This document shows positions 327-45,781 of a DNA stretch of 64,000 nucleotides, piece by piece. This DNA comes from Chelativorans sp. J32 (lineage in GTDB: Bacteria; Pseudomonadota; Alphaproteobacteria; Rhizobiales; Rhizobiaceae): the NCBI RefSeq assembly GCF_000518985.1, contig NZ_JAEQ01000010.1, positions 1-64,000 of the forward strand. The letters run 5' to 3'. The notes under the pieces are model-generated. The model searched no databases and was not told the origin of the DNA. It worked only from the letters and a program-made list of their open reading frames with translations. The number at the start of each line of letters is the position of its first letter. Position 1 is the first letter of the stretch. The position numbers and the translations under genes are program-made.

Positions 327-2033
<1,707 letters not shown>

Positions 2034-2034
2034 A

Positions 2035-2226
2035 TCAGGAGGAGCGCTTCCTCCTTTGCCGTGACATCATCACTTCCTCTGCATAGCACTCCTGCGCCGC
2101 CTGCCTCGCCAGGATGCCGACCAGTCGCAGAAGGCGTGGGTCGGGATTGCCGCGTGGCGTAAACGTCAGCTCCGGCACGTCCAGCAGCAAGGATTCGAGC
2201 AGCGCTTCGCGCTCTCCTCCTGTCAT
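2035..2226 (-). CDS. Small conserved-looking ORF abutting the recombinase
   Basis: A 63-residue reading frame ends one base before the recombinase start codon, which implies translational coupling. It contains a segment rich in R, L and A (DPRLLRLVGILARQAA) of the kind I recall in short proteins placed just upstream of plasmid-borne serine recombinases. I do not know a function; an accessory role in recombination or in controlling the recombinase is only inference from position. The start at 2226 is uncertain, because the frame stays open further upstream (to 2325) and no strong ribosome site distinguishes the candidates. Confidence 0.5.
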   Translation of the reverse strand: MTGGEREALLESLLLDVPELTFTPRGNPDPRLLRLVGILARQAAQECYAEEVMMSRQRRKRSS

Positions 2227-3887: not shown

Positions 3888-4115
3888 ACGTTAGTTCCAC
3901 GCCGTCGACCGCCTGGCGAGATCAAACTAACTCACTGTGCGCCCCTTCTCTGTCGTTTCGACGATGATCCGCTGATCCTGGAAGCAGCTTTTCAGCGCCC
4001 AGTGTGACCAAGGCTTTGCCGTGCGAGGTAGGCGCGACTTGATGGAGTAGCTGTTCATCGCACTTGCATTCCCGCCGCTCGGATTCGACAACTGGTGTAC
4101 TCGGGGGAAAATGCC

Positions 4116-16905: not shown

Positions 16906-17793
16906 TCACAAATCTTCTGGCCGGATCGACCATTCTGCGATTTCTCTATCGATCAATCGCCATTGCTCTAAAAGGTCGGCAAGGTCGGCGCTGTCTACGA
17001 CCGCATGATCGAGGCCCTCGAATTGGTCACCGAGATATGTGGCGAGGCCCGCACCGCCTTCGTTGGCGAACCACACTCCGACCAGATCCGCGATTTCCTT
17101 CAACTGCCTGAGAGTCTTTTCGGCATCGCGAATGTCGAAATCACCAAGCTCCCTGTCCTGCCGACTTTGCTTGTTCCCGGCATGAGCAACATGCGAGTTA
17201 ACGTGCTCGGCAATTCGATCAAGGCTGGCGAGCCGAGTTTCGATCTTCTCCAATACCGTGGCTGAGATCAGATCGCTCGGGTTACGCCCTGATGGAGACA
17301 CGCCGCTCAAAACATCGAAATGCCGATGCGCGGCCTGACTTTTCATGAGCTCTGGATCACCCCACACCGGACGCCCATTCGCGGCGACGAGGTGGTCATG
17401 TTGTTCTTGATGCAGGCGATCGAGATCGTATTGCGCGTCAAGCACTTTCTCGACGTAGATTCTCCTGGTCAACCAGTTTTGGCTCGCTTTCACGTCGTTG
17501 ACGACAGATCGGATCGAGTAAACTCCCTTGGGGCCATTGATCGGGGCCTTATCGAGAAGTCGGCGAGTGCCGAGAAGCAGGCTTGACCAGTACCCCTCGG
17601 AAACGAGATTGAACATCATCTGGTTAAGCGGGGGTCTCGAGCCTCTCTTCTCATTTGCAAGACGGACGATCCGAACCGTCGTGCGAAAGGCGGCGTAGTT
17701 CCAGAGCAGATCCTGAATGGTTCTGTGGATGCCCGTTGTCTCGTCGCGAAAAGCATCCCGCCACGTGGCGATGTGCTGGTCATGCTGCGTCAT
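16906..17793 (-). CDS. Putative HEPN/AbiU2-like protein
   Basis: About 295 helical residues with RLLDKAP near the first third and HVNSHVAHAGN in the second half. These resemble the conserved segments of AbiU2-type HEPN proteins, which tend to be RNases or abortive-infection factors, but the R-x4-6-H HEPN motif is not clear-cut. It lies alone on the minus strand between dnaE2 and the ArdC block, is less GC-rich than its neighbours, and may be a separate acquisition. A longer reading from 17880 is open; 17793 is preferred because TTGGAAAAC precedes it and the extra N-terminus looks non-native. Confidence 0.65.
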   Translation of the reverse strand: MTQHDQHIATWRDAFRDETTGIHRTIQDLLWNYAAFRTTVRIVRLANEKRGSRPPLNQMMFNLVSEGYWSSLLLGTRRLLDKAPINGPKGVYSIRSVVNDVKASQNWLTRRIYVEKVLDAQYDLDRLHQEQHDHLVAANGRPVWGDPELMKSQAAHRHFDVLSGVSPSGRNPSDLISATVLEKIETRLASLDRIAEHVNSHVAHAGNKQSRQDRELGDFDIRDAEKTLRQLKEIADLVGVWFANEGGAGLATYLGDQFEGLDHAVVDSADLADLLEQWRLIDREIAEWSIRPEDL

Positions 17794-17883
17794 TAGTTTT
17801 CCAAGCCTGAGCGCCAAACTCACCTCATCATACCGGCAGACGCCAACACCGGCGACGGCTATTCGCTTCTGATTCTTCATTCG

Positions 17884-18007
17884 CGCGGGCTCTTTTTATT
17901 GTTCCCGCGAATAAACGCGCATCTTGCCGTGGGCCTGACGGGGGAAGGCCTTCCCCCTGGCCGGCACTATCGTTGCCGGCGCACCCCCTTCAGCGGGGAG
18001 ACCCCGC
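17884..18007. repeat. Cluster of four hairpin-forming palindromes before ardC
   Basis: Four inverted repeats follow one another: CGCGGG/CCCGCG (17884-17889, 17904-17909), the perfect palindrome GGGGGAAGGCCTTCCCCC (17940-17957), GCCGGC/GCCGGC (17960-17965, 17975-17980) and GCGGGG/CCCCGC (17993-17998, 18002-18007). A fifth structure, the leader at 18045, follows. Such density suggests function in folded single-stranded DNA or RNA, for example a single-strand promoter or initiation site in the entering strand. Confidence 0.6.
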
Positions 18008-18044
18008 AACGCCCCCTGAGAGGGAGAGTGCGGACGGGTTTTCC

Positions 18045-18092
18045 GTGACGGGTTGAGTGCTGGAGGAGTGGCCTCCGGCGCCCGTCGCGGAG
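18045..18092 (+). promoter_or_regulatory. Structured RNA leader of ardC (copy A)
   Basis: GTGACGGG (18045-18052) pairs with CCCGTCGC (18081-18088); TTGAGT is bulged; GCTGGAGG (18059-18066) pairs with CCTCCGGC (18072-18079) around loop AGTGG. The ribosome site GGAG (18089-18092) follows at once and can itself pair with TTCC at 18041-18044, which would hide it. Copies B (19517) and C (25093) share this layout with compensatory base changes. Confidence 0.7.
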
Positions 18093-18101
18093 ATCATCCC
18101 G

Positions 18102-19058
18102 ATGGCCAGACAGGACCGCGCTCGCCCAGGCGGCGCCCGCAGCAATCTCTATGACGACATCACCGACAAGATCATCGCCGAGCTGGAGGAAGGACGGCTT
18201 CCCTGGGTCCAGCCTTGGGGGACTGCGGCGAAAGCGCCGCTTGCCATGCCGCGAAACGCCGCGACCTCGCGGCAGTATTCCGGGATCAATGTGCTGATCC
18301 TCTGGGGTGCCGTGGTCCAGAACGGCTATCCGACCCAGCATTGGCTCACCTATCGCCAGGCGGCAGCCCTCGGCGGCAATGTCCGTAAGGGCGAGCACGG
18401 CACGACGGTCGTCTATGCCGACCGCTTCACCCCGGAAGACGAGAAGCGCCGAGCCCGCGAGACCGGTGAAGAACCGGGACGCGTCCCGTTCCTGAAGCGT
18501 TTCACCGTGTTCAACGCGGCGCAATGCGAAGGCTTGCCCGAGGACATCGCTGTCGAGGCACCACCACCACCGCCAGGCATGATCGAGCCGAGGGTCGAGG
18601 CGCTGATCTGTGCCACTGGTATCGATTTCCGCATCGGCGGGGATCGCGCCTTCTATGTTCCGGCGCTCGACTATGTCCAGGTGCCGCCACCGGCCGCCTA
18701 TTTCGAACCGATCAACTGGCACAGGACGGCGCTCCACGAGATGGGTCACGCCACAGGCCATGCCTCGCGCCTGGGGCGGGATTTTTCGGGCAGTTTCGGC
18801 ACGAAGAAATACGCCTTCGAGGAGCTGGTGGCTGAGATGAACGCGGCCTTCTGCTGCGCCTCGCTCGGCATCGTGCCGACCGTGCGCCATGCCGACTACA
18901 TCGGCTCCTGGCTGGAGGTGCTGCGCGAGGATAACCGCGCCATTGTCCGCGCGGCCTCACAGGCCAGTAAGGCGGCCGACTGGCTGCTGGCGCATCTGCC
19001 GGCCGAAGATGCCGGGGAACCGGATCCGGCTGCAATCGACGAGAGGGTCGCGGCATGA
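18102..19058 (+). CDS. ardC: ArdC-type antirestriction protein
   Basis: A 318-residue protein. The N-terminal ssDNA-binding domain (about 10-130) includes YDDITDKIIAELEEGRLPWVQPW and NVLILW, and a C-terminal zincin-like metallopeptidase domain carries HEMGH near 211-215 with FEELVAEMNAAF supplying the third ligand. ArdC proteins bind incoming single-stranded DNA and protect plasmids from restriction in recipients. It is preceded by a structured leader and followed, with a 4-base overlap, by a DUF2958 gene, a standard pairing on alphaproteobacterial plasmids. Confidence 0.95.
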   Translation: MARQDRARPGGARSNLYDDITDKIIAELEEGRLPWVQPWGTAAKAPLAMPRNAATSRQYSGINVLILWGAVVQNGYPTQHWLTYRQAAALGGNVRKGEHGTTVVYADRFTPEDEKRRARETGEEPGRVPFLKRFTVFNAAQCEGLPEDIAVEAPPPPPGMIEPRVEALICATGIDFRIGGDRAFYVPALDYVQVPPPAAYFEPINWHRTALHEMGHATGHASRLGRDFSGSFGTKKYAFEELVAEMNAAFCCASLGIVPTVRHADYIGSWLEVLREDNRAIVRAASQASKAADWLLAHLPAEDAGEPDPAAIDERVAA

Positions 19059-19450
19059 TCCTCCTGACCGGAACACAGCGTGACCGGCTTCTGGCCAATG
19101 GATGCCAGCGCGGCGGGGATCACATCCCCGTCGTGAAATTCTTCAACCCCTTCGGCGCGGGCGTCTGGCTCGCCACCGAGCTGGATCAGGGCGGCGACAT
19201 CATGTTCGGCCTGGCCGATATCGGCTACCCCGAACTCGGCTCGTGGAGCCTGGAAGAGCTGCGTGGGGTCCGGTTGCCCTTCGGCATGGGGATCGAGCGG
19301 GATCTGCTCTTCACCGGGGATTTCCCGATCTCGGTCTGGGCGGAGGCTGCGTGGGAAACCGGCAGCATCCAGGCGGCGGAACGAGCCCTCTACCGCGCCG
19401 GTGCGGCATTCACCCGCACATCCACAGATACGGAAAGCCGGGAATCCTGA
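19055..19450 (+). CDS. DUF2958 domain protein
   Basis: A 131-residue protein of the DUF2958 family: LLTGTQRDRLLANG at the start, VVKFFNPFGAGVWLATEL, then DIMFGLADIGYPELGSWSLEEL and the LPFGMGIERDLLF block. The function of the family is unknown; it is almost always next to ArdC or ParB on plasmids and ICEs. Start ATG 19055 overlaps the ardC stop, so it is co-translated. A role in establishment after transfer is inferred from context. Confidence 0.92.
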   Translation: MILLTGTQRDRLLANGCQRGGDHIPVVKFFNPFGAGVWLATELDQGGDIMFGLADIGYPELGSWSLEELRGVRLPFGMGIERDLLFTGDFPISVWAEAAWETGSIQAAERALYRAGAAFTRTSTDTESRES

Positions 19451-19516
19451 TTTCCGGTTGCCGGCTTTGTGGCCTGGCGTCGCACTCTTCAGAGGAAGAG
19501 GGCGGCGCTTCGCTTC

Positions 19517-19565
19517 GTGACGGGTTGGAGGTCGAGAGAGTGGCTCCCGGCCGCCCGTGGCGGAG
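19517..19565 (+). promoter_or_regulatory. Structured RNA leader of the parB gene (copy B)
   Basis: GTGACGGG (19517-19524) pairs with CCCGTGGC (19554-19561) with one mismatch. GTCGAGAG (19531-19538) pairs with CTCCCGGC (19544-19551), seven of eight, around the same AGTGG loop. The GGAG ribosome site (19562-19565) can pair with CTTC at 19513-19516. The layout is that of copy A, one base longer on the right side. Confidence 0.65.
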
Positions 19566-19573
19566 AAATCACC

Positions 19574-21724
19574 ATGGCCAAAGCTGCCAGGAAGAAGCCC
19601 GTCGCCCCGATGATCGTCTTTTCACGGGCGCGCGACATTCCGTTCAACCGGATCAGGCTGTCGGACAGCAATGTTCGCGAGGCTGACGTCGAGGCGGGTC
19701 TGGACGAACTTACCCATGACATCGACCGGCGCGAGGATCTCGTGCAGGGCCTCAACGTTCGCGCCATCCTCGACGCGGACGGCGTTGAGACCGGCGATTT
19801 CGAGACCCCGGCCGGCGGCCGCCGCTACAGGTCCATCGCGCGCCTCGTCGAAGCCGGTCGCTTCCCGGCCGATGGCCTCGTCCCCTGCATCGTCAAGAAG
19901 GCCGATGCCAAGACCTCGGCAGTCGACGACTCGCTGGCCGAGAACCTGCTGCGCCTCGCCCTGCATCCGCTCGACCAGTTCAAGGCGTTCAAGCGGATGT
20001 TCGACATGGGCATGTCGAAGGAGGAGATCGCCGACGCCTGGCGGACCACGCCGCGCTACATCATGCAGCGCCTTCGTCTCGCGACGGTCGCGCCGGCGCT
20101 GCACGACGCCTATGCGCGGAATGAGATGACGCTGGCGATGCTGGAAGCCTTCACCGTCAATCCCGACCACGAGCGCCAGCAGCAGGTCTGGGAGCGGATC
20201 AGCACGTCGTGGCAGAAAGAGCCCTGGCACATCCGCAGCCTGCTGACCGAGACCACGGTTCCGGCTGCCGACAAGCGCGCCCGCTTCATCGGCATCGACG
20301 CCTATGAGGCGGCGGGCGGCCCGGTGCTGCGCGATCTCTTCTCCGACGAGAACGGCGGTTGGTTGCAGGACGTCACGCTGCTCGACCGCCTGGTTGACGA
20401 TAAGCTGCGCACTGTCGCCGACGAGATCGCCGGACAGGGCTGGAAGTGGATCGACGCGGCAGTCGAACTTCCCTACGGCTACGCCAACGGCCTGCGCAGG
20501 CTGGTCGGTGTGACCCAGGAGCTGACCGACGAGGAGCGCACCGCCCGCGAGGCGCTGCGCGACGAGTATGACGAACTCGAAGCGCAGTATGCAGAAGCCG
20601 ACGACCTGCCCGATGAGATCGACCAGCGGCTCGGGGAGATCGAAGCCGAGTTGGAAGGCTTCGAGAACCGGCCCGTCACCTTCGCGCCGGAAGACATCGC
20701 CCGTGCCGGTGTTTTCGTCAGCATCGACCGCGATGGCGAGTTGATCGTCAGTCCCGGTTATGTCCGCCCCGAGGACGAACAACCCGAGAGCGTCGATGGT
20801 GAGGATGCGGGCGAAGGTGCCGACCCGTCCGATCCCGATGCGGTGCAGCGCGCGGTTATCACCGTCGGCGGCGAGCCGGTCCCGGACGGCGATGAAGAGG
20901 AGGACGATGCCGTCAAGCCGCTGCCCGAGCGGCTGGTGACCGACCTGACCGCCTGGCGGACGCTGGCGTTGCGCAATGCGCTTGCCGAGAATCCGCGCGT
21001 CGCCATGACGGCGCTGCTGCACAAGCTGGTTCTCGATACTTTCGAGCGCACCGCCACCTCGGGAACCAGCCTCTATGCCGCCGTGCGTCACATCTATCTT
21101 CCCACGGATGCGACCGGGCTCGCTGACAGCGCCGCCGCGAAGATGATCGACGAGCGCGCGGACGCCTGGCGGGGCGACATCCCCGCTGGCGATGACGACC
21201 GGCTCTGGGACTGGATCGACGGTCTCGACGATGCCAGCCGCCTGGCGCTGCTCGCCCATTGCGTCAGTTTCGGGGTCAACGCGCTTTACGAGCGGCCCAA
21301 CCCCTATTCGGGGAATGGCATCTCGCAGCACGGTCTCGACCGCCGCATGGCCGAGGCCGAACGGCTGGCACAGGCCACCGGCCTCGATCTCGTCGAAGCG
21401 GGCTGGAGGCCCACGGTCGAGAACTACCTGGGTCGCGTGACCAAGACCCGCATCATCGAGGCGGTGCGCGAGGGCGCCGGCGATCGCGCGGCCGATCTCA
21501 TCGCGCATCTCAAGAAGGGCGATATGGCGAAGGAGGCCGAACGGCTCCTGGCCGATACCGGCTGGCTGCCGGAGCCGCTGCGCCCCGCCATCGAGGCGCA
21601 GGCCGTGGATGGCGCGACCGATCAGGACGAGGACAGCGTGGCGCTGCCCGACTTCCTCGCCGGTGGCCATGAGGACACGGCCGAGGCCGCCGACGATCCA
21701 GAGGCCCTCGTCGCCGCCGAGTGA
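19574..21724 (+). CDS. ParB/RepB-type protein, large
   Basis: A 716-residue protein. It has an N-terminal ParB-like domain (about 15-125) with GLNVRAILDADG, ETPAGGRRYRSIARL and DDSLAENLLRLALHPLDQFKAF, then a helix-turn-helix region KEEIADAWRTTPRYIMQRLRLATVAP. A long acidic, low-similarity C-terminus (about 300-716) has no function I can assign. It is far larger than partition ParB proteins and is not next to parA (51.5 kb); this class is common beside ArdC on rhizobial plasmids. It may bind and spread on, or process, incoming ICE DNA. Start ATG 19574 has GGAG nine bases upstream. Confidence 0.9.
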   Translation: MAKAARKKPVAPMIVFSRARDIPFNRIRLSDSNVREADVEAGLDELTHDIDRREDLVQGLNVRAILDADGVETGDFETPAGGRRYRSIARLVEAGRFPADGLVPCIVKKADAKTSAVDDSLAENLLRLALHPLDQFKAFKRMFDMGMSKEEIADAWRTTPRYIMQRLRLATVAPALHDAYARNEMTLAMLEAFTVNPDHERQQQVWERISTSWQKEPWHIRSLLTETTVPAADKRARFIGIDAYEAAGGPVLRDLFSDENGGWLQDVTLLDRLVDDKLRTVADEIAGQGWKWIDAAVELPYGYANGLRRLVGVTQELTDEERTAREALRDEYDELEAQYAEADDLPDEIDQRLGEIEAELEGFENRPVTFAPEDIARAGVFVSIDRDGELIVSPGYVRPEDEQPESVDGEDAGEGADPSDPDAVQRAVITVGGEPVPDGDEEEDDAVKPLPERLVTDLTAWRTLALRNALAENPRVAMTALLHKLVLDTFERTATSGTSLYAAVRHIYLPTDATGLADSAAAKMIDERADAWRGDIPAGDDDRLWDWIDGLDDASRLALLAHCVSFGVNALYERPNPYSGNGISQHGLDRRMAEAERLAQATGLDLVEAGWRPTVENYLGRVTKTRIIEAVREGAGDRAADLIAHLKKGDMAKEAERLLADTGWLPEPLRPAIEAQAVDGATDQDEDSVALPDFLAGGHEDTAEAADDPEALVAAE

Positions 21725-21733
21725 CGCGCAGCA

Positions 21734-21757
21734 GCGGGGCGGCCTCCGCCGCCCCGC
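21734..21757 (+). terminator. Strong hairpin after parB
   Basis: GCGGGGCGGC (21734-21743) and GCCGCCCCGC (21748-21757) form a perfect 10-bp stem with loop CTCC, starting 10 bases after the parB stop. There is no T run, so termination would need Rho or the hairpin may instead protect the mRNA end. Confidence 0.5.
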
Positions 21758-21778
21758 ATTCCATCCCTTCCATCTGAA

Positions 21779-21815
21779 GGCCCGGCATCTCGCCGGGCCG
21801 CTTTCGTTTCAGGAG
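21779..21815 (+). promoter_or_regulatory. GGCCCGGC hairpin plus TTTCAGGAG leader, copy 1
   Basis: GGCCCGGC (21779-21786) and GCCGGGCC (21792-21799) form a perfect stem with loop ATCTC. It is followed by CTTTCGTTTCAGGAG, whose AGGAG (21811-21815) is the ribosome site of the gene starting at 21823. The same arrangement recurs at 22322 and 25731. Confidence 0.6.
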
Positions 21816-21822
21816 CAAGATC

Positions 21823-22299
21823 ATGTCCGCTTCCCTCATTTTCGACATTGCGCCTCTCGGCTCGCTCGTGGCCTATAGCGACGGCCAGCCGAAACCGCCC
21901 GCACGTTTCACCAAGAAGCTCGCCGCGTGGAAATCCCGCAACGGGGCCGGTCGCCTCGTGCGCAAGGAACCGGGCCGCGAGCGCCCGACCTACACGACGC
22001 CGCCGTCCTTCACCCTGCATGAGGGTGATTTCGGCGAAGGCGGCATCATCCTCATCACCATCATGCGCAGCTACGGCATCGACAGCGATCTGAGCTTCCG
22101 GGTTGTCGAACGCCCGAAGATCGGTCAGGTCCGTGTTGTGCAGGATGTCGGAGAGAACGTCGAATTGCTGCACCTCGCGGAGAACCACGAGGCGGCCGAA
22201 CTCTGGCTAGCCAGGAACGGCTACAGCCGCGCGCGCCTCGAGGAGATCACCGCCGACGAGGCAGGCGCCGATGCCGTCGAGGGTCGAGCTGCCGCGTGA
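21823..22299 (+). CDS. Hypothetical conserved plasmid/ICE protein
   Basis: A 158-residue soluble protein. A basic middle (PPARFTKKLAAWKSRNGAGRLVRKEPG) is followed by YTTPPSFTLHEGDFGEGGIILITIMRSYGIDSDLSFRV and a helical acidic C-terminus. I do not recognise a domain. It starts with a very good AGGAG after the hairpin leader and belongs to the run of small plus-strand genes after parB. Composition and codon use are typical of its neighbours, so it is very likely real. Confidence 0.8.
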   Translation: MSASLIFDIAPLGSLVAYSDGQPKPPARFTKKLAAWKSRNGAGRLVRKEPGRERPTYTTPPSFTLHEGDFGEGGIILITIMRSYGIDSDLSFRVVERPKIGQVRVVQDVGENVELLHLAENHEAAELWLARNGYSRARLEEITADEAGADAVEGRAAA

Positions 22300-22321
22300 C
22301 CATCGCCGATCCCGTTCATCC

Positions 22322-22364
22322 GGCCCGCTTGTCCCGTGACGGCGGGCCTTCTTCGTTTCAGGAG
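22322..22364 (+). promoter_or_regulatory. GGCCCGC hairpin plus TTTCAGGAG leader, copy 2
   Basis: GGCCCGC (22322-22328) and GCGGGCC (22342-22348) enclose a 13-base loop. CTTCTTCGTTTCAGGAG follows and supplies the ribosome site (22360-22364) of the gene at 22371. The tail is nearly identical to copies 1 and 3. Confidence 0.6.
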
Positions 22365-22370
22365 AACACA

Positions 22371-22637
22371 ATGGCCATTCCCGATCCCGTTCGAACGAAC
22401 TTCGACACTCTGCTTCGTGCTGCCGATGACGGCAATCTCGCCCTTATGGAATGCCTCGACGCCGCGACCCGTGAGACACGCTATGTCCTGTGCGCGGTCG
22501 GCCGCGACGGGGGTGATTACGTCTTCACGCCGTTCGGCCATCTCGCAAGCGGCAACCCCTATGACGCCTATCTGCCGCCGGATCCCGACGATCCTGCCGG
22601 CTTTGTCGAGAAGGCCGAAGATGGGGGCGCATCATGA
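22371..22637 (+). CDS. DUF6117-like small protein
   Basis: An 88-residue protein: MAIPDPVRTNFDTLLRAADDG, LALMECLDAATRETRYVLCAVGRDGGDYVFTPFGHL, NPYDAYLPPDPDD. This matches, from memory, the DUF6117 family found on alphaproteobacterial plasmids; its function is unknown. ATG 22371 is chosen over an upstream GTG because AGGAG lies six bases before it. Its end overlaps the next start, so the two are coupled. Confidence 0.85.
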   Translation: MAIPDPVRTNFDTLLRAADDGNLALMECLDAATRETRYVLCAVGRDGGDYVFTPFGHLASGNPYDAYLPPDPDDPAGFVEKAEDGGAS

Positions 22638-22930
22638 TGACGGTCGATGAAATCTTCGCCGATGACCGCCGCAATCCGCCATCGGAGCGCTCGCTTCCCT
22701 GGGAGGAAACCCGCAACGGCGTCACCGTCATCGTGGAACCGAAACCGCATTGGGCCGAGGACATGCGCGCCTTCCGGCTCGATGCCCGCGAATACTGCCG
22801 CTATGCCGACTGGACGGCCCATGGCGCCCGGACGCGCTTTTTCGGTCATATCGACACCTCCGGCGACGATGTGATGATGAAGGCCCGCGCCATGATCGCC
22901 CGCGAAATCGCCGATGGGTTCTGGGACTGA
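22634..22930 (+). CDS. Hypothetical small protein
   Basis: A 98-residue protein starting 4 bases inside the previous gene (ATGATG at 22634). It contains VTVIVEPKPHWAEDMRAFRLDAREYCRYADWTAHGARTRFFGHIDTSGDDVMMKARAMIAREI. It is probably a small soluble alpha/beta protein. No family recognised. Coupling with the DUF6117-like gene suggests a shared job in the establishment block. Confidence 0.75.
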   Translation: MMTVDEIFADDRRNPPSERSLPWEETRNGVTVIVEPKPHWAEDMRAFRLDAREYCRYADWTAHGARTRFFGHIDTSGDDVMMKARAMIAREIADGFWD

Positions 22931-22984
22931 CCGGCCCTGAAAGCCGAACCTTGCACACGGGGCTATCGGGTATCGCTGCACAAG

Positions 22985-23090
22985 CAGCGATGGATCGAGT
23001 TCGAGCTTCACCATTGCGCCAACTCCTTGGTGTTGTGGGGGTAACGGGTTCCGTCCCCGGCCTGAAACACACCCTGAATATCCGCCGGCA
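22985..23090 (-). pseudogene. Decayed inverted copy of the small gene at 23355
   Basis: On the minus strand this stretch reads VFQAGDGTRYPHN and, in another frame, MVKLELDPSLL. The intact plus-strand gene has VFQAGDGTHGAMP and MVKLELDPFG. At the DNA level about 80 bases are similar, in opposite orientation, 350 bases apart. It is a broken, frameshifted relic of an inverted duplication. The rest of 22931-23303 shows no gene that I can support. Confidence 0.55.
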
Positions 23091-23303
23091 ACGAGGCTGG
23101 CGCAGCAAAGCATCTGCGACGGGTTTCCGGCACCGGCTCGACGCAAAGCACCATCCCCCGCTTCCATTCGCTAACCTTGGTCCGACCGTCTCTTTGCATT
23201 CAACCCCGGTGGGGTCGGCTTACGCGCGCGTGCCGCCCTCGGGGATTCGGAAAGAATCCGAACGCCCGAGGGTGATTGCAGATCCGGTCAGACACTTCGG
23301 GCG

Positions 23304-23345
23304 CCTGTCGCGCGGGGGATGGTCCCCCGCCTCCAAAGACAGGAG
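23304..23345 (+). promoter_or_regulatory. Nested hairpin leader overlapping the ribosome site
   Basis: An inner stem GCGGGGGA/TCCCCCGC (23312-23319, 23323-23330) with loop TGG is enclosed by CCTGTC/GACAGG (23304-23309, 23338-23343). The outer 3' arm includes the first bases of AGGAG (23341-23345), the ribosome site for 23355, so folding should limit initiation. Confidence 0.6.
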
Positions 23346-23354
23346 CCGGAACCC

Positions 23355-23519
23355 ATGTCCTACGCAGATGCCACCGCTTTCGCCGCCAGCCTCGCCACCA
23401 CGCTGATGGTCGTGATCGTCGTGTTCCAGGCCGGGGACGGCACCCACGGCGCCATGCCCGCCGACGAGTTCGACGGCGACGAAGAGATGGTGAAGCTCGA
23501 ACTCGATCCCTTCGGCTGA
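23355..23519 (+). CDS. Small membrane protein of unknown function
   Basis: A 54-residue protein. Residues about 8-27 (AFAASLATTLMVVIVVFQAG) form one membrane segment, followed by an acidic tail DEFDGDEEMVKLELDPFG that should be cytoplasmic or periplasmic. The ribosome site AGGAG is good but lies in a hairpin. A degraded inverted relative lies just upstream. It ends within a hairpin (GAGGCGC/GCGCCTC, 23518-23535) that overlaps the stop codon. Confidence 0.7.
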   Translation: MSYADATAFAASLATTLMVVIVVFQAGDGTHGAMPADEFDGDEEMVKLELDPFG

Positions 23520-23543
23520 GGCGCGAAAGCGCCTCCGCCCGAC

Positions 23544-23573
23544 GGCCCGGCCCGCGTCAGGCGCAGCCGGGCC
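23544..23573 (+). repeat. GGCCCGGC/GCCGGGCC hairpin, copy without TTTCAGGAG
   Basis: GGCCCGGC (23544-23551) and GCCGGGCC (23566-23573) repeat the stem of the leaders at 21779 and 25731, but the TTTCAGGAG tail is missing. The 23575-23729 stretch that follows holds further stems (GGCGG/CCGCC and GGAGAG/CTCTCC) ending in TGGAGG before the gene at 23730, again a hairpin leader. Confidence 0.5.
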
Positions 23574-23729
23574 TTGTGCCATGCGCAGGCTGCGCATCGC
23601 CAGCGGCGGTGCCGAGGCCTCGCCTCGGCTCTGGAAAGGGAGAGTTGGGCCGGGATCGGGGCGAGCCTGGCGGAAGGAGAGGAGAGCGCCGCCGGGCCAT
23701 ATCATCCCGCTCTCCTGGAGGATCATCCA

Positions 23730-24218
23730 ATGACCGATACCGACAAACCAGCCACGCCGGAATTCGACATGGCCGCCAGCGTCGCGCGCTTCTTCGCCGA
23801 GCGCGATGAGCGCAACCGTCGCGCTGAAGCGGTCCGTCCCGACAACAAGACGGCGCTGTTCGATGCGCTGGCCGCCGCAGGCATCACTCTCGTGACCGTC
23901 ACCTTCGACGGTTCTGGCGACAGCGGCCAGATCGAGGACATCACCGCGCAATCGGACGACCGGACCGTGGACCTGCCGCAGGGCGAGATCACCATTGCCA
24001 CGGTGGCATGGGGAACCGACAAGGTGACCGCAATCTCAATGGGCGTTGAGGCGGCCATCGAACAGCTCGCCTATGACTTCCTCTCGGAAACCCATGGCGG
24101 CTGGGAGAACAATGATGGCGCCTATGGCGAGTTCAGCTTCGATGTGGCGGCGCGCACCATCACGCTCGACTACAACGAGCGCTACACCGCCACCGAATTC
24201 TACAGTCACGAGTTCTGA
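23730..24218 (+). CDS. DUF6878-like protein
   Basis: A 162-residue acidic protein: NKTALFDALAAAGITLVTVTFDGSGDSGQIEDI, GEITIATVAWG, EAAIEQLAYDFLSETHGGWENNDGAYGEFSFDVAARTITLDYNERY. From memory this is the DUF6878 family of plasmid-borne proteins, function unknown. It has a TGGAGG ribosome site and a structured leader. It is followed after 10 bases by a DUF6915-like gene, so they form a pair. Confidence 0.82.
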   Translation: MTDTDKPATPEFDMAASVARFFAERDERNRRAEAVRPDNKTALFDALAAAGITLVTVTFDGSGDSGQIEDITAQSDDRTVDLPQGEITIATVAWGTDKVTAISMGVEAAIEQLAYDFLSETHGGWENNDGAYGEFSFDVAARTITLDYNERYTATEFYSHEF

Positions 24219-24228
24219 GGGGGTGGAA

Positions 24229-24609
24229 ATGGCACATCCCTATCATCATGCGCTCTCGTCGGTGAAGAAATGGGGCGGCACGGTCGAGGATTACTTGCCC
24301 ATCCATAGCTGGTTCGATGCCAGCAAGGAGATCCTGGCCGATTTTCGTCATCGCGCGCTTCGCCACCATGCCGAGGGCATCTTCATGGCCGAGACCATTT
24401 TCGGGGCGACGATCACCCTGTCCACCGGCAGGGTGATCCCGGCCCGATGGGTCGGGGAGCAGCATGTCCGCGAGGATCTGGGCCGTATCCCGTCCTTCGC
24501 CGATTGGGCGCGGGCAATCCACCCGGCGCCTTGGATGGGGCGGACGCAGCGGATCGAGGCGGAGGTCGATCCGCATTGCGTCAATGGCCGACTTCAGGAA
24601 GAAGTCTGA
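24229..24609 (+). CDS. DUF6915-like protein
   Basis: A 126-residue protein: AHPYHHALSSVKKWGGTVEDYLPIHSWFDASKEILADFRHRALRHHAEGIFMAETIFG, then HVREDLGRIPSFADWARAI. The many conserved His and the opening match the DUF6915 family as I remember it. It may bind metal; no reaction is known. GGGGTGG precedes the start. Part of the establishment block. Confidence 0.82.
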   Translation: MAHPYHHALSSVKKWGGTVEDYLPIHSWFDASKEILADFRHRALRHHAEGIFMAETIFGATITLSTGRVIPARWVGEQHVREDLGRIPSFADWARAIHPAPWMGRTQRIEAEVDPHCVNGRLQEEV

Positions 24610-24648
24610 GCAGTCGCGTCAGCCTCCCCCTTATGAAAGCCTCTTGCC

Positions 24649-25017
24649 ATGCTCAGCCATATCGTCATCTCCGTCCTGCTCTGCACGGCTTCCTGCGAAC
24701 CGGCGGAAATCCGCGTCTGGGACGGTGACTCGATCCGGCTGGGTATGGGACAGCAGTCCGAAGCTGTTCGGATATTCAACATCGACGCTCCCGAAATGGA
24801 GGGCCGCTGCATCCATGAAACCGACCTTGCCCGGCAAGCGAAGATCAGGCTGGCGGAAATCCTGCAAGGTCGGCGGGTCGAAATCCTGCGTCAGGGGACC
24901 GACCGCTATGGCCGGACCCTGGCGGCGATACGCGTCGAAGGCCGCGATGTCGGCGATATTCTCGTCGATGAAGGGCTGGCGAGAACCTGGGCCGGGCGGC
25001 GTGAGCCCTGGTGCTGA
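24649..25017 (+). CDS. SNase-like thermonuclease family protein, exported
   Basis: A 122-residue protein. The short hydrophobic N-terminus (LSHIVISVLLCTASC) is a signal peptide, perhaps a lipoprotein one with Cys at about 16. SNase motifs are VWDGDSIRLGM, RIFNIDAPEM, and GTDRYGRTLAAIRVEGRDVGDILVDEGLA; unlike the protein at 3411 it keeps RYGR, so it could be active. It would cut nucleic acid in the periplasm or at the envelope. Two related but different nucleases on one ICE is notable. Confidence 0.85.
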   Translation: MLSHIVISVLLCTASCEPAEIRVWDGDSIRLGMGQQSEAVRIFNIDAPEMEGRCIHETDLARQAKIRLAEILQGRRVEILRQGTDRYGRTLAAIRVEGRDVGDILVDEGLARTWAGRREPWC

Positions 25018-25092
25018 TCGCCGGATCGTCCCGCCGAGGTGCGGGACGATCCACCGTCGGGACGGGAGAGTAAGAGTGCGGGCCGGTTGGCC

Positions 25093-25140
25093 GTGACGGA
25101 TTGTGAGGCGGGAGAGGGGCTTCCGCCGTCCGTCGCGGAG
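25093..25140 (+). promoter_or_regulatory. Structured RNA leader (copy C)
   Basis: GTGACGGA (25093-25100) pairs with TCCGTCGC (25129-25136), the last pair being A-T where copy A has G-C. GGCGGGAG (25107-25114) pairs perfectly, with one wobble, with CTTCCGCC (25120-25127) around AGGGG. GGAG (25137-25140) follows and the start codon is 9 bases on. These compensatory changes argue for an RNA (or ssDNA) fold. Confidence 0.7.
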
Positions 25141-25148
25141 CATTCCCC

Positions 25149-25706
25149 ATGAGCCTTTCCCACCACACCACTTTCGCCTCGATCGGCGAAATTGTCGCGC
25201 GACAGATCCTGCCCCGGCTGCGTCATGCCCAGAAGCTGCCGCTGCGCATCTCCTGCATCGGTATCGCCAGCGATGACGAAAGCGATGACGTCGGCGGCTT
25301 CGAGCGCACGCTCGTCATCGGCCAGTGCCAATCCCCCGAAGAGGCGTTGATCATCGCCAGCCAGCGCGTTGCGCGCGGTGATTTCCGCGTTGGACAGGGC
25401 GATGCGCTGCGCTTTCGCCCCCGCGTCATGGTCATTCAGGACAACGAACTGGGCCTTGTCCTTGCCGGTGAGGTCCGGGCCGGGATCGTGCTCTGGCAGC
25501 ATCCGGTCGCCTCCGACGCCGAGGCTCGCCGCACCGTCACGGAGGCCAGCCGTCTGCGGGGCATGGCCTTCACGGCATCCGGGCGCGGCGATGCGGTATC
25601 GGCTCGTGATCTCCGCCACCGCGCCAGCCTGCTCGAGGCGCGGCTGGTCGATCCCTTCTGGCGCGAGACGACTGCCGATCTGCTGCGGCTGCCACAAGCT
25701 GCCTGA
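25149..25706 (+). CDS. Hypothetical protein with covarying RNA leader
   Basis: A 185-residue soluble protein: FASIGEIVARQILPRL, RISCIGIASDDESDDVGGFERTLVIGQCQSPEEALIIASQRVARG, then DALRFRPRVMVIQDNELGLVLAGEVRAGIVLWQHP. No family recognised. It shares its leader type with ardC and parB, which suggests it is expressed with them. Composition is that of a real gene. Confidence 0.8.
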   Translation: MSLSHHTTFASIGEIVARQILPRLRHAQKLPLRISCIGIASDDESDDVGGFERTLVIGQCQSPEEALIIASQRVARGDFRVGQGDALRFRPRVMVIQDNELGLVLAGEVRAGIVLWQHPVASDAEARRTVTEASRLRGMAFTASGRGDAVSARDLRHRASLLEARLVDPFWRETTADLLRLPQAA

Positions 25707-25730
25707 CCTGTCGCCCCTTTCCATCCACTA

Positions 25731-25766
25731 GGCCCGGCCCCGCGCCGGGCCTTCTCGTTTCAGGAG
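25731..25766 (+). promoter_or_regulatory. GGCCCGGC hairpin plus TTTCAGGAG leader, copy 3
   Basis: GGCCCGGC (25731-25738) and GCCGGGCC (25744-25751) flank a CCCGC loop. CTTCTCGTTTCAGGAG follows, with AGGAG at 25762-25766 before the start at 25773. Stem and tail match copy 1 almost base for base although the flanking genes are unrelated. Confidence 0.6.
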
Positions 25767-25772
25767 CCTGAC

Positions 25773-26189
25773 ATGGCCGACTACTTCACCCATTTCTCCT
25801 GCCTGCTCGACGTGGGCAGCCCCGAGAACGCCGCCCGCGCGCTTGATCTCTACAACGCGCTGGCGCGCGAAAACGCCGCCGAAGATCCGCCCTCGGACGG
25901 CTTCATGCTTTCGATCCAGCCCGAACATGGCGGCACCCAGCTCTGGATGCGCGATGACGGCACCGGCGATCCCGAGCATGTCATCCAGTTCGTCAAACGC
26001 TGTGCCGCCGCGTTCGGCCTGACCGGGCTATGGGGGATGCAATACGCCAATACCTGCTCACGTCCGAGAATCGACGGGTTCGGGGGCGGCGCGCATGTCC
26101 TCGACCTCGCCACCGGCGAGACGGTGGACTGGATCTACACCGACGGTTGGCTTTCCACCGTTCTGGACGGGGGCGACCCCAATGCCTGA
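25773..26189 (+). CDS. Hypothetical conserved protein
   Basis: A 138-residue protein: YFTHFSCLLDVGSPENAARALDLYNAL, GFMLSIQPEHGGTQLWMRDDGTGDPEHVIQFVKRCAAAFGLTGLWGMQYANTCSRPRIDGFGGGAHVLDL. It resembles small plasmid-encoded proteins I have seen without assigned function. It overlaps the next gene by 8 bases, so the two are coupled. Confidence 0.8.
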   Translation: MADYFTHFSCLLDVGSPENAARALDLYNALARENAAEDPPSDGFMLSIQPEHGGTQLWMRDDGTGDPEHVIQFVKRCAAAFGLTGLWGMQYANTCSRPRIDGFGGGAHVLDLATGETVDWIYTDGWLSTVLDGGDPNA

Positions 26190-26826
26190 CGTCATCGAAA
26201 CCACGGTCTATCGGCTCGACGAGCTTTCCGAAGCCGCGAAAGACAATGCCCGCGCCTGGTATCGCGAGGGCGGCTTCGACTACGATTGGTACGATGCCGT
26301 CTATGAGGATTTCCGGCGGATCGCGGACATCCTCGGCATCCGCATCAAGAGCCGCACCGTCCGCCTCATGGGCGGCGGCGTGCGACAAGAGCCTTGCATC
26401 TGGTTTACGGGCTTCTGGTCGCAGGGCGATGGCGCCGCGTTCGAAGGCCACTATTCCTATCGCAAAGGCACGGCGGCGGAAATCCGTACCTATGCGCCGA
26501 AGGATGTGGAGCTGCACCGCATCGCGGATGCCCTGCACCAGGCGCAACGCCGCAACTTCTACCAGTTGACCGCCGAGGCGACCCATCGGGGGCGATACTA
26601 TCACGAATACTGCATGGCGATCTCGGTCACCCGCGACAGCCCGACCTGGCAGGACATGACCGCCGATGCCGAGGAGACCGTCATGGAGGCATTGCGCGAT
26701 CTCGCCCGTTGGCTTTATCGCCAGCTTGAGCGCGAATACGACTACCTGACTTCGGATGAGGCGGTCGATGAGGCCATCGTTGCCAACGAATACAGCTTCA
26801 CAGTTGATGGAAAGCGCTTCGGCTGA
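26182..26826 (+). CDS. Conserved protein, sometimes labelled antitoxin of a stability system
   Basis: A 214-residue protein beginning DVIETTVYRLDELSEAAKDNARAWYREGGFDYDWYDAVYEDFRRIADILGI. Proteins with this start are often annotated, without proof that I know of, as an antitoxin of a toxin-antitoxin stability system. It has a glycine-rich middle (GGGVRQEPCIWFTGFW) and a helical C-terminus. No toxin partner is evident next to it. It overlaps the 25773 gene by 8 bases. Confidence 0.8.
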   Translation: MPDVIETTVYRLDELSEAAKDNARAWYREGGFDYDWYDAVYEDFRRIADILGIRIKSRTVRLMGGGVRQEPCIWFTGFWSQGDGAAFEGHYSYRKGTAAEIRTYAPKDVELHRIADALHQAQRRNFYQLTAEATHRGRYYHEYCMAISVTRDSPTWQDMTADAEETVMEALRDLARWLYRQLEREYDYLTSDEAVDEAIVANEYSFTVDGKRFG

Positions 26827-26843
26827 AACCCTTCTGCGCTGCC

Positions 26844-27227
26844 TCACAGAACCGACAGCAGGTCCGTCCGTGAGAAGTCGTCGCCGACGAAGAGCAACGG
26901 GCAGCCGCGTTCGCTGGCGACCTCATAGGCGAAGCAATCCCCGTAGTTGAGTCCGGCGGGATGAACGCCCTTGCCCCAGCGGGCATAGGCTTCGGCGATC
27001 CTGCGTGCCGAGGCTTCAGTGACGGAGACCACCTCGAACCCAAGGCCCTCGACCAGGGCGGCGATCTCTTCACCGACATTGCGCCGCCCGGCGACGATCA
27101 GCGCCTCGGCCACTGTTCCGGCCGAGATCAGCAGGCCGTCTGCCGCCTCGATCGCCACCATGCAGGTCTCGGCCTGCGGCTCGTCCAGCACGATGGCCAT
27201 CAGCGCCGAGGTATCGACGGCGATCAT
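26844..27227 (-). CDS. vapC: VapC-family PIN-domain toxin
   Basis: A 127-residue PIN domain protein. Acidic residues sit as expected: VDTSALMAI (Asp5), GTVAEALIVAG, LNYGDCFAYEVA (Asp), and LLFVGDDFSRTD. VapC toxins are Mg-dependent RNases that cleave tRNA or rRNA. The start overlaps the antitoxin stop by 4 bases. The pair is antisense to the surrounding block, which suggests it was inserted later; it would make loss of the ICE costly. Confidence 0.93.
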   Translation of the reverse strand: MIAVDTSALMAIVLDEPQAETCMVAIEAADGLLISAGTVAEALIVAGRRNVGEEIAALVEGLGFEVVSVTEASARRIAEAYARWGKGVHPAGLNYGDCFAYEVASERGCPLLFVGDDFSRTDLLSVL

Positions 27228-27481
27228 GCCGGCATCCCGTCATCCCCGTAGAGGAAATCCTGGCTGCGCGCGGCAGCCGCGCCGGGCAATGCCTTGCCCC
27301 GCGCCGTGGCCCGGACCCGCTCCATCAGCGCGCGCCGGCCTTTCGGGGTCGCCACCACGGCAACCGGCACGAGGCGGGCGACCTCGTGGCCCCGCCGCGT
27401 CAGGATCACCTCGTCGCCGGCTTCGGCCCGCTTCACCAGTTCGGTGAGCTGCCCCTTCGCCTCGGTGACAGAAACCCTCAT
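27224..27481 (-). CDS. vapB: Phd/YefM-type antitoxin of VapC
   Basis: An 85-residue protein with the Phd/YefM fold: RVSVTEAKGQLTELVKRAEAGDEVILTRRGHEVARLVPV in the DNA-binding half, and a C-terminal toxin-binding tail (about 50-85). It neutralises VapC and would repress their shared promoter, which must lie in the 27482-27560 stretch. Its 3' end overlaps vapC. Confidence 0.92.
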   Translation of the reverse strand: MRVSVTEAKGQLTELVKRAEAGDEVILTRRGHEVARLVPVAVVATPKGRRALMERVRATARGKALPGAAAARSQDFLYGDDGMPA

Positions 27482-27596
27482 CGCATATCACTCCAGATGT
27501 TCTCCGCTATTCTGCACAAGATGGTCCAGATAATGGTCCACTTCAAGCCCCCAGAGCGAAAGGAGGGCCGGGAACAGGTGCCCCCGGACGGGTTGA

Positions 27597-27635
27597 GAGA
27601 GGGTCGTCCGGCAGGTGCCCCTTTCCCTCTCGGAG
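27597..27635 (+). promoter_or_regulatory. Hairpin leader next to the ribosome site of the ArdB/KlcA-like gene
   Basis: GAGAGGG (27597-27603) pairs with CCCTCTC (27625-27631), directly followed by GGAG (27632-27635). An inner GGC/GCC stem has loop AGGT. Just upstream CGGACGGGTTGAG resembles the GACGGGTTGAG start of leader A. The alternative stem CCGGACG/CGTCCGG overlaps the left arm, so two folds compete. Confidence 0.45.
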
Positions 27636-27642
27636 ACCGATC

Positions 27643-28065
27643 ATGGCTTTGCCCGAACTTGCTTCCCAATCCGCAATCCGCGTCCCCGACGAGCGCCGCA
27701 TGGACTTCCTGCCGCGCCTTTTTGGCCGGCGCCTGCTCATCATCGGCGAGCATACCGTCTTTCGCTTCATGGAGATACTCAGCCCCGGCGATTACGGCGG
27801 CGGGCTCTGGGATTTCTACGAACGCGCCGGCCAGCCGCTCTATCTCGCGCCGACCTCAAAGCCCCGTTGCCGCCTGTTCTGCGAAGGCAACGGCTTCGAG
27901 GGCGAGGTCTCAAGCGATGCCGCCGGGATCATCGCCACGCTCTTCGCCTTCTCGCATCTTTCCTTCCGCTACGATGACGACGAACTCGCCGAGGGCTATG
28001 GTCGCCTCTACGAGCATGCCGCCGATCACGCGGAGGCGGCGGCGATTTTCCAGGCCATCGACTGA
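27643..28065 (+). CDS. ArdB/KlcA-family antirestriction protein
   Basis: A 140-residue protein with the family core: RMDFLPRLFGRRLLIIGEHTVFRFMEILSPGDYGGGLWDFYE, then LYLAPTS and SDAAGIIATLFAFSHLSF. ArdB/KlcA proteins inhibit type I restriction without mimicking DNA charge. It is the second antirestriction gene of the element after ArdC. A hairpin leader precedes it and a clear terminator follows. Confidence 0.88.
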   Translation: MALPELASQSAIRVPDERRMDFLPRLFGRRLLIIGEHTVFRFMEILSPGDYGGGLWDFYERAGQPLYLAPTSKPRCRLFCEGNGFEGEVSSDAAGIIATLFAFSHLSFRYDDDELAEGYGRLYEHAADHAEAAAIFQAID

Positions 28066-28071
28066 AACCCA

Positions 28072-28104
28072 CAAGCGCCCAGCCTGACGGTCGGGCGCTT
28101 GTTT
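28072..28104 (+). terminator. Rho-independent terminator after the ArdB/KlcA-like gene
   Basis: CAAGCGCCC (28072-28080) pairs with GGGCGCTTG (28093-28101), followed by TTT. It lies 6 bases after the stop of the antirestriction gene, so that gene is its own transcription unit. Confidence 0.75.
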
Positions 28105-28174
28105 CATGCCTGCTTTCGCCACGGCTTCAGAGCGAGAGATGGGCCGGAAGGGGTTTGAGCCGGTGCGGTCGAGA

Positions 28175-28209
28175 GAGAGCGCTGCCCGGCTTGATCCTGA
28201 CTTGCTCTC
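28175..28209 (+). promoter_or_regulatory. Hairpin upstream of the strawberry-notch gene
   Basis: GAGAGC (28175-28180) pairs with GCTCTC (28204-28209); CGAGGAA serves as ribosome site just after it and the start codon is at 28224. It follows the general pattern of a stem placed immediately before the ribosome site seen at many genes of this block. Confidence 0.4.
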
Positions 28210-28223
28210 CCGAGGAATCCCCG

Positions 28224-45676: not shown

Positions 45677-45781
45677 AGCCACATCCTCCTTTGAGCAACA
45701 TGGATACAAGTCCTTTGTCGCCGACTGCTCTCTCGCATTCACACGACATGCCGGCCCCGAATGGGCATCCGGCAGAAGACG

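Follow-up and report, generated by a model that had tools for sequence, protein, structure and literature searches.

An AGAG-bearing, covarying family of mRNA leaders in front of anti-restriction and other genes in Alphaproteobacteria

The window analysed here is a stretch of 64,000 nucleotides of Chelativorans sp. J32 (positions 1 to 64,000 of contig NZ_JAEQ01000010.1, assembly GCF_000518985.1). It is taken as a conjugative element or a piece of one, since it encodes a replication initiator of the RPA type, a TraG-like coupling protein and a DUF3363 protein whose relaxase match exceeds the cut-off. The anti-restriction gene ardC, a parB-like gene and a third gene for an unannotated 185-residue protein are each preceded by a leader of one architecture (type I); the genes for a strawberry-notch-like helicase, a KlcA/ArdB-type antirestriction protein and a DUF6878 protein are preceded by leaders of a second one (type II), and all are listed in Table 1. 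These leaders belong to a real, widespread and covarying RNA family, with two architectures, one shared AGAG code and one gene theme; their structure bears compensatory changes, folds in the mRNA strand, has a fixed place at the start codon and is shared by unrelated genes.

Table 1. Leaders and the genes behind them in the 64,000-nucleotide window (SD, Shine-Dalgarno sequence; R1 and R2, covariance models of type I and type II leaders)
Feature	Positions	Strand	Evidence	Elements
Type I leader A, upstream of ardC (ATG 18102)	18013..18101	+	sequence, folds, R1 match	AGAG box 18019-18028; outer stem 18045-18052/18081-18088; inner stem 18059-18066/18072-18079; loop AGTGG 18067-18071; SD GGAG 18089-18092
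ardC, anti-restriction factor	18102..19058	+	Pfam ArdcN 2.1e-44, MPTase-PolyVal 4.5e-50	
Type I leader B, upstream of parB-like gene (ATG 19574)	19485..19573	+	sequence, folds, R1 match	box 19491-19500; outer stem 19517-19524/19554-19561 (one G.G); inner stem 19531-19538/19544-19551 (one A.C); loop AGTGG 19539-19543; SD 19562-19565
parB-like gene, 716 residues	19574..21724	+	HTH_ParB 4.6e-4, under its cut-off	
Divergent type II leader, DUF6878 gene (ATG 23730)	23633..23729	+	R2 41.5 bits, E 6.5e-6, outside training set	box AAAGGGAGAG 23635-23644; hairpin with GGAGAGGAGAG loop; GCTCTCC; SD GGAG 23717-23720
DUF6878 gene	23730..24218	+	PF21798 7.1e-58	
Type I leader C, upstream of gene for 185-residue unannotated protein (ATG 25149)	25061..25148	+	sequence, folds, R1 match	box 25067-25076; outer stem 25093-25100/25129-25136; inner stem 25107-25114/25120-25127; loop AGGGG 25115-25119; SD 25137-25140
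Third (copy-C) gene, 185-residue protein family without annotation	25149..25706	+	no Pfam match	
Divergent type II leader, klcA/ardB (ATG 27643)	27551..27642	+	R2 31.3 bits, E 8.8e-4, outside training set	box AGAGCGAAAG 27553-27562; hairpin loop with GAGAGAGGG; CCCTCTC; SD GGAG 27632-27635
klcA/ardB-type antirestriction gene	27643..28065	+	Antirestrict PF03230 3.2e-38	
Type II leader, strawberry-notch-like helicase (ATG 28224)	28127..28223	+	R2 89.7 bits, training member; relatives	box 28129-28138; hairpin apical loop GAGAGAGAG 28171-28179; GCTCTCCC 28204-28211; SD GAGG 28212-28215
Strawberry-notch-like helicase gene, 1449 residues	28224..32573	+	AAA_34 2.7e-121, Helicase_C_4 4.7e-99	

A preliminary description of this region had placed three leaders at 18045-18092, 19517-19565 and 25093-25140 on the + strand, where they are indeed found, in front of ardC, the parB-like gene and the third gene, respectively (as judged by Pfam, the ParB match being below its cut-off; the parB-like homologues cluster with locus L005, which matches ParB_N at 2.5e-7). 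The order of the elements, the bulge starting with TTG, the AG(T/G)GG loop and the GGAG are as it had described them in copies A, B and C, and the outer-stem G-C pair of copy A that it found exchanged for A-T in copy C lies at the inner end of the stem. Copy B departs from two perfect stems of eight base pairs each, with a G.G in third position of the outer stem (19519/19559) and an A.C within the inner stem (19535/19547). Compared with dinucleotide shuffles, the 48-nucleotide cores fold with z values of -4.65 (A), -2.21 (B) and -4.43 (C), and longer pieces of 76-78 nucleotides with z values of -4.59, -0.73 and -2.39; the fold of copy B is regarded as weak because of this -0.73. The pattern GTGACGGRTTGN{10,40}GTNGCGGAG has copies A, B and C as its sole three matches in the host genome, and when two mismatches are tolerated the window holds 33 matches versus 32.9 expected, the leaders being the three exact matches only.

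The type I family reaches well beyond this element. A search pattern, GTGACGGNTTGN{15,40}CCGTNGCGGAG, is present in 13 of 61 relatives while its reversed form has no match, and a slightly narrower pattern, which fixes most of the outer stem, finds at least 119 stretches in a species-level genome collection, with 80 loci among the matches listed. After removal of six chance-looking loci and of matches with short flanks, thinning of the rest to 56 and exclusion of L053 and L067 (divergent subtype), 54 non-redundant members constitute the covariance model R1. In the window, R1 scores copies A, C and B, all three of them training members, at 94.0, 85.4 and 76.5 bits, and the next best match at 13.1 bits; this match, the fifth (11.7 bits) and the seventh (10.0 bits) overlap type II leaders, the latter two being at chance level when taken alone. 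Among 385 alphaproteobacterial genomes, R1 gives 63 matches in 31 genomes, 20 of which carry two or more copies; four others (G217, G306, G346 and G424) are counted on one weak match each, with E values from 6.5e-4 to 0.006, and these matches may be due to chance. A phylum-wide sample, in which the share of genomes from other classes is not established, contains matches in 34 of 398 genomes, all 34 labelled as belonging to the host's own group or to the same family, order or class. BLAST with leader A retrieves 101 plasmid records, the ten genera named in this tally being, we take it, Alphaproteobacteria; the same search of 20,395 Escherichia coli records gives no match. A phage origin is not indicated: of the three viral contigs that fit the pattern, L140 and L142 score only 24.5 and 22.8 bits with R1 and L141 gives no match at E <= 0.01. 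The preliminary description could not place the motif in a known RNA family, and this stands: the whole window searched against Rfam 15 at the gathering cut-off matches only 5S rRNA, tRNA and ROSE, none of them at the leaders, and permissive Rfam scans, run on 17900-27000 and on three relatives that carry leaders of type I or II, reach at best an E value of 0.19, far under the cut-offs. Literature searches, thin on subscription papers, returned no description of this leader motif.

Covariation is measured in alignment A2, which holds the best 150 of 159 matches, with pair statistics taken on 133 distinct rows. Its stored structure, like that of the type II alignment A5 considered below, is fitted to its own model and favoured by this: 98.2% of cells pair, as compared to 93.6% in shuffled alignments and 36-47% after a shift of the partner column by one to three places. 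Changes on both sides of a pair occur in 155 cells (40.5 +/- 10.6 shuffled) and affect 10 of the 18 pairs (5.4 +/- 1.0 shuffled), namely 7/7 of the inner and 3/11 of the outer stem; some outer-stem exchanges are seen in members out of the pattern's reach, such as those with ...CATGGAG ends. The preliminary description, which proposed a covarying leader family, had named an absence of matches beyond the element, or of covariation above background, as what would speak against it; members found by R1 in 31 of 385 genomes and compensatory changes above those of shuffles bear its proposal out. G.U pairs outnumber A.C oppositions by 452 to 20 in 2392 cells, and by 219 to 18 when pairs of U.G consensus are left aside; as a fold of the complementary strand would show A.C, it is the mRNA strand that folds.

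The place of the fold with respect to the start codon is equally constant. In 130 of 144 pattern matches, the gap between GGAG and ATG measures 7-9 nucleotides; nine more are without a clear start and five have another spacing or a GTG start. The pairing of GGAG with TTCC or CTTC that had been pointed out in copies A and B is present in the folds of the longer pieces and extends to the family, since the first two G of the Shine-Dalgarno (SD) sequence pair with a YC ahead of the outer stem (columns 33-88 and 34-87) in 131 and 132 of the 133 rows. Over 131 type I leaders, the mean unpaired probability is 0.05 for the GG of the SD and 0.25 for the AG that follows, and the mean predicted fold over 130 leaders amounts to -31.9 kcal/mol at 37 C and -29.3 kcal/mol at 42 C. 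With a conserved mRNA-strand structure that takes in the SD or adjoins it, the type I family is a candidate for an mRNA leader of the kind that controls the ribosome-binding site. The switch that had been read into a competing upstream stem (ACGG/CCGT) fares less well. It is possible in the ardC class and weakly supported, the four-base-pair version being only moderately above chance: it is found in 23 of 39 scorable sequences (out of 40 thinned to 80% identity) versus 16.1 in linker shuffles, 6 of 500 of which reach 23. This stem is far shorter than the outer stem and occurs mostly in leaders with CCGT at that place (14/16).

Upstream of the stem lies a second conserved element, an AGAG box of the form AGAGNNAGAG; the preliminary description, right about the three type I copies, had missed both this box and the type II architecture seen at the helicase, KlcA and DUF6878 genes. 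In 124 of 129 type I leaders, 15-17 nucleotides separate the box from the stem. It falls outside the search pattern, yet its strict form stands no more than 45 nucleotides upstream in 119 of 144 pattern matches, or in 129 when purine changes are admitted. In a set of 40 sequences, thinned to 80% identity, conservation reaches at least 95% in every AGAG column, as against 45-55% for the intervening NN, 33-53% for six 5' flanking columns and 40-78% for four 3' flanking columns. Box and loop are mostly exposed in type I folds (unpaired 0.74 and 0.97, respectively), and the loop reads AGAGG in 98 of the 133 distinct rows; box and loop are each as conserved as the stem. The window has six AGAGNNARAG sites, those of the helicase and klcA leaders among them, versus 2.4 expected, a modest excess by itself (1 of 100 shuffles reaches six). 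In 41 regions, which comprise the window and 40 regions of relatives chosen for their type I leaders, AGAGNNAGAG occurs 107 times on both strands versus 22.8 expected, a density that is not a genome average because only genomes with known type I leaders contributed. Of these sites, 83 precede an ATG open reading frame (ORF) with an SD, at distances of only 80-84 or 90-97 nucleotides and in one case 102; the 24 sites without a called ORF appear by eye to be about six leaders or scattered sites. Many ardC leaders have, in addition, a conserved hairpin run 5' of the box (GGGGAAAGCCTTCCCC ... GCGGGGAGACCCCGCAACGCCCC; 17930-18012 in the window), absent from other ardC copies with the same box and stem.

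The type II leaders came to light through inspection of the DNA upstream of homologues in the 40 regions and a scan of all loci for arrangements of box, SD and ORF. They consist of the box, a longer multi-helix hairpin (GGGACGGGTTTGAGCCGG...) with an apical loop RAGAGAGAGC, mostly a GCTCTCC, and then the SD. In the alignment A5 of the type II model R2, with pair statistics on all 83 rows, 91.5% of cells are paired, compared to 76.8% when shuffled and 47-64% when slid; both-side changes are found in 12 of 12 counted pairs (7.7 +/- 1.3 shuffled) and 102 cells (23.0 +/- 3.8). The strand bias is the same as in type I, G.U exceeding A.C by 176 to 10 in 875 cells, or 127 to 10 without pairs of U.G consensus (74 distinct rows, seven rows judged type I or ambiguous having been removed). 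The CTCTCC stretch fits pairing both with the box and with the apical loop; its bases hardly vary, and some members are without CTCTC. Within the klcA leader, the box AGAGCGAAAG (27553-27562) is complementary in 9 of 10 positions to the SD-proximal CTTTCCCTCT (27621-27630), which hints at mutual pairing. A terminator-like hairpin with a T-run is placed just 5' of the helicase leader in the window (28082-28100) and in relatives, about 16 nucleotides before the box in L190 by eye, and so close a hairpin leaves little room for a promoter. A possible third subtype, with a box, a GAGAGA loop and a shorter hairpin, precedes a conserved protein of 171-173 residues starting with MFQ (L067 2230-2317, L200 at about 2237, L203 and L204).

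The genes served by these leaders are unrelated to one another. When homologues are collected by protein similarity alone in the fetched regions, the strict box is located upstream of 71 of 95 homologues of the six leader-gene families and of 1 of 74 homologues of six neighbour genes that have no leader in the window. By family, the counts are 21/24 for the helicase, 15/21 for ardC, 27/35 for the parB-like gene, 4/4 for the copy-C gene, 2/4 for klcA and 2/7 for DUF6878, the regions having been chosen for type I leaders, so that the ardC and parB counts are favoured and those of the other families are not; for the neighbours, they are 0/7 (DUF2958), 0/12 (DUF6117), 0/32 (primase), 1/12 (ORF 25773), 0/5 (ORF 21823) and 0/6 (ORF 22634). 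A called downstream gene is available for 291 of 315 distinct leaders, in a tally that used 79 of the 83 R2 rows. Type I leaders are followed by genes for ParB-like (90), ArdC (79) and DUF932-like proteins (27, DUF932 being under the cut-off) and for the copy-C family (15), and type II leaders by genes for the helicase (55), KlcA (8), DUF6878 (4) and RadC (1). The genes behind ten further type I leaders are rare or singletons, and the ParB cluster includes two R2 rows that look like type I. R2 matches 19 of the 385 genomes, 18 of them among the 31 with type I (hypergeometric 1e-21, a value that ignores kinship); a common AGAG box together with a second leader type looks like a regulon and not like one motif. 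The co-occurrence core of the fetched regions is made of the parB-like gene, the primase, the helicase and a 333-residue family, and no metabolic theme of the riboswitch kind is apparent among the downstream genes. A type I leader at 1667-2044 (-) of L156 precedes a gene for an AlpA-like regulator, a possible lead to a regulator inside the regulon.

Several other features of the window deserve mention. The 185-residue protein has no match in Pfam and PADLOC searches, and its AlphaFold model, of modest confidence (mean pLDDT, the predicted local distance difference test score, 70.7), has no fold match in the PDB at E <= 0.001. On another contig, the host genome encodes a second ArdC, at which R1 has no match. 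Defence-like genes adjoin the element, namely those for a HEPN AbiU2 protein (16906-17880, -) and an OLD-like ATPase with a TOPRIM domain (4095-6161, +). Nested long inverted repeats flank or enter a small ORF near 23356 (22992-23014/23487-23509, 23 nucleotides, 100%; 23046-23070/23421-23445, 25 nucleotides, 92%). An intercistronic hairpin distinct from both leader types, with a GC stem, a T-rich tail, (TTC)TCGTTTCAGGAG and a start codon, recurs at 21779-21815, 22327-22364 and 25730-25766; these hairpins are terminator-like and located immediately 5' of the SD of ORFs 21823, 22371 and 25773. A ROSE RNA thermometer is recognised at 45670-45772 (-), with 57.2 bits versus a cut-off of 45.

Folded leaders that share AGAG at several establishment genes suggest joint RNA-level control by a putative factor. 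On balance, we lean towards the reading that the leaders act in cis and join the establishment and anti-restriction genes of conjugative elements of Alphaproteobacteria in a post-transcriptional regulon, operated by a hairpin clamp and a trans-acting factor that reads AGAG. The function of the leaders is inferred here from their position and conservation alone, and so are a translational effect, the factor, the sign of its action and a connection with the period that follows transfer. The GC-rich hairpin of each leader would end on the ribosome-binding site; with the first two G of the SD inside the type I stem, unaided initiation should be weak. The AGAG motifs, namely AGAGNNAGAG in the 5' box and AGAGG or GAGAGAGAG in the purine loop at the apex, could be common recognition sites of one factor, either an RNA-binding protein or a CU-rich small RNA, that would hold or open the clamp on all genes together. 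Pairing in cis is insufficient to account for AGAG because type I folds leave box and loop mostly unpaired and CTCTC is absent from some type II leaders; a single trans factor would explain why two architectures and several unrelated genes have AGAG in common. The kinds of genes suggest a control of establishment after transfer and, as a guess on the sign, the factor may be a repressor that the resident element supplies and a fresh recipient lacks, so that expression in the latter would be transient. A more specific proposal, which we hold as tentative, is that one AGAG-binding factor of the element reads both architectures on about half a dozen unrelated genes for anti-restriction and maintenance, to the effect of a burst in the recipient and a shut-off as the factor accumulates; if true, this would be zygotic induction through translation control instead of a promoter.

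Several results weigh against a regulon of this kind. The sequence sets are related, the search pattern itself fixes most of the outer stem and the GGAG, and box and loop motifs served to select the type II training set, so that motif conservation there proves nothing. The three type II leaders of the window fold no better than shuffles (z -0.41 for the helicase, -0.32 for klcA and -0.70 for DUF6878), while three type II relatives do (z -3.26, -4.07 and -3.01); in type II folds the box frequently takes part in pairing (unpaired 0.40), and a helix does not in every case enclose the SD. Four of the seven DUF6878 homologues are without a box, which speaks against the assignment of the DUF6878 leader. 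Among ArdcN places, fragments included and compared by eye, 12 of 66 (in 45 of the 385 genomes) have an R1 leader and 54 do not, and ArdC therefore does not need the leader. No candidate regulator emerges either: inspection by eye of the 45 most shared gene clusters of the fetched regions shows no obvious RNA-binding family, and no second element bearing CTCTNNCTCT is recognised among the 107 box sites of the 41 regions on both strands. CsrA is found in 4 and not in 17 of 21 leader-bearing genomes, the loop being AGAGG in the 98 of 133 rows mentioned above, and TRAP (PF02081) is found in 0 of these 21, with Bacillus subtilis as a positive control; both are rejected as the factor.

A passive structure, in which the hairpin would insulate the ribosome-binding site from the upstream transcript or protect the mRNA and set a fixed low level with no trans factor, is the rival that survives best, and we consider it unlikely. 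The folds beside the SD are very stable, as their mean predicted energies indicate, and hairpins before start codons are common in the element, judging by those at 21779, 22327 and 25730. Such a structure leaves unexplained why the type I loop and AGAG box are conserved to the level of the stem, and why the box precedes some genes and not their neighbours. The AGAG sites may also be targets of a CUCU-bearing small RNA from either the element or its host, a variant contained in the regulon reading and given a small chance: unpaired purine-rich sites near the ribosome-binding site would suit it, and many type II leaders possess their own GCTCTCC by the SD, for which box and loop are both possible partners in cis, whereas no recurring antisense CTCTNNCTCT element is seen in the 41 regions and some type II leaders (L200 and L207, for instance) are without CTCTC. 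It is quite improbable that AGAGNNAGAG is a double-stranded DNA operator, that is, a direct-repeat site of a DNA-binding repressor next to an incidental inverted repeat. AGAG-NN-AGAG can be viewed as two half sites 6 bp apart that recall the dual motifs of p576 Reg (PMC8708921), and the box-to-stem distance of 15-17 in 124 of 129 type I leaders is as an operator would have it; the strand asymmetry, the compensatory stems, a box-to-start distance that differs by type (80-84 versus 90-97) and a further AGAG run in the apical loop of both types are not. Single-stranded DNA promoters of the Frpo/ssi kind, transcribing the entering strand, would fit the anti-restriction and establishment genes and a hairpin just upstream (Frpo precedes leading-region genes; PMC11541004), and are hardly credible here since they need a fold of the template strand, in which G.U would appear as A.C (G.U 452 versus A.C 20), and since a scan for the sigma-70 type only finds no such site at any leader in 17850-28700.

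Two further identities were considered and set aside. A ROSE-type RNA thermometer is not supported, as the ROSE match is at 45670-45772 only and the predicted type I fold, with means of -31.9 kcal/mol at 37 C and -29.3 kcal/mol at 42 C, shows no marginal stem that would melt near 42 C. A leader peptide is not supported either, GTG ACG GGT TGA not being kept and members with TTGG for TTGA being common.

Brief switching-on of establishment and anti-restriction genes after DNA entry is served by few known systems, namely single-stranded DNA promoters and the p576 repressor (PMC8708921). With a widespread leader family ahead of the genes for ArdC, KlcA, RadC and strawberry-notch helicases, the way in which such genes are switched on can be put to the test in one large bacterial class, and the two covariance models R1 and R2 mark such genes, including unannotated ones like that of the 185-residue protein. 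The family implies a regulator at the RNA level; none turned up in the literature searches.

Autogenous and translational operators in mRNA leaders, such as that of ribosomal protein S15, likewise place a structured 5' leader beside the SD; here, one kind of leader serves several unrelated genes. In CsrA/RsmA regulons, many mRNAs present short purine motifs in SD-proximal loops to one factor, which is similar in layout, but its motif is ANGGA and the one found here is AGAG. Frpo/ssi of F-like plasmids are hairpins ahead of anti-defence genes of conjugative elements, as here; in contrast to the leaders, which fold in the mRNA strand, are GC-rich and lack sigma-70-like elements, Frpo folds in the transferred template DNA and forms -35 and -10 elements (PMC11541004). 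The remaining comparison is with the establishment gene regulatory sequences EGeRS1 and EGeRS2 of the Bacillus pLS20 plasmid family, for which we depend on the accessible sections of PMC8708921. There, EGeRS2 of p576 comprises a promoter, repressor operators and dual motifs TTATCCCnnTTATCCC, whereas the conserved box of the present leaders is AGAGNNAGAG and no promoter-like site is seen at them. Like the leaders, the EGeRS are conserved sequences that recur within one conjugative element, right before the ribosome-binding sites of its ardC and further establishment genes. EGeRS1, whose mechanism is given there as unknown while p576 uses a repressor, is rich in inverted repeats and has an RNAalifold consensus by its authors, without covariation statistics. 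It shares the place before the ribosome-binding site and differs in size and host, measuring 420-750 bp in Bacillus as compared to a shared module of about 90 nucleotides in another phylum, and the leaders are thus not EGeRS1 itself; EGeRS1 of pLS20 is nonetheless the nearest in spirit to the leaders described here.

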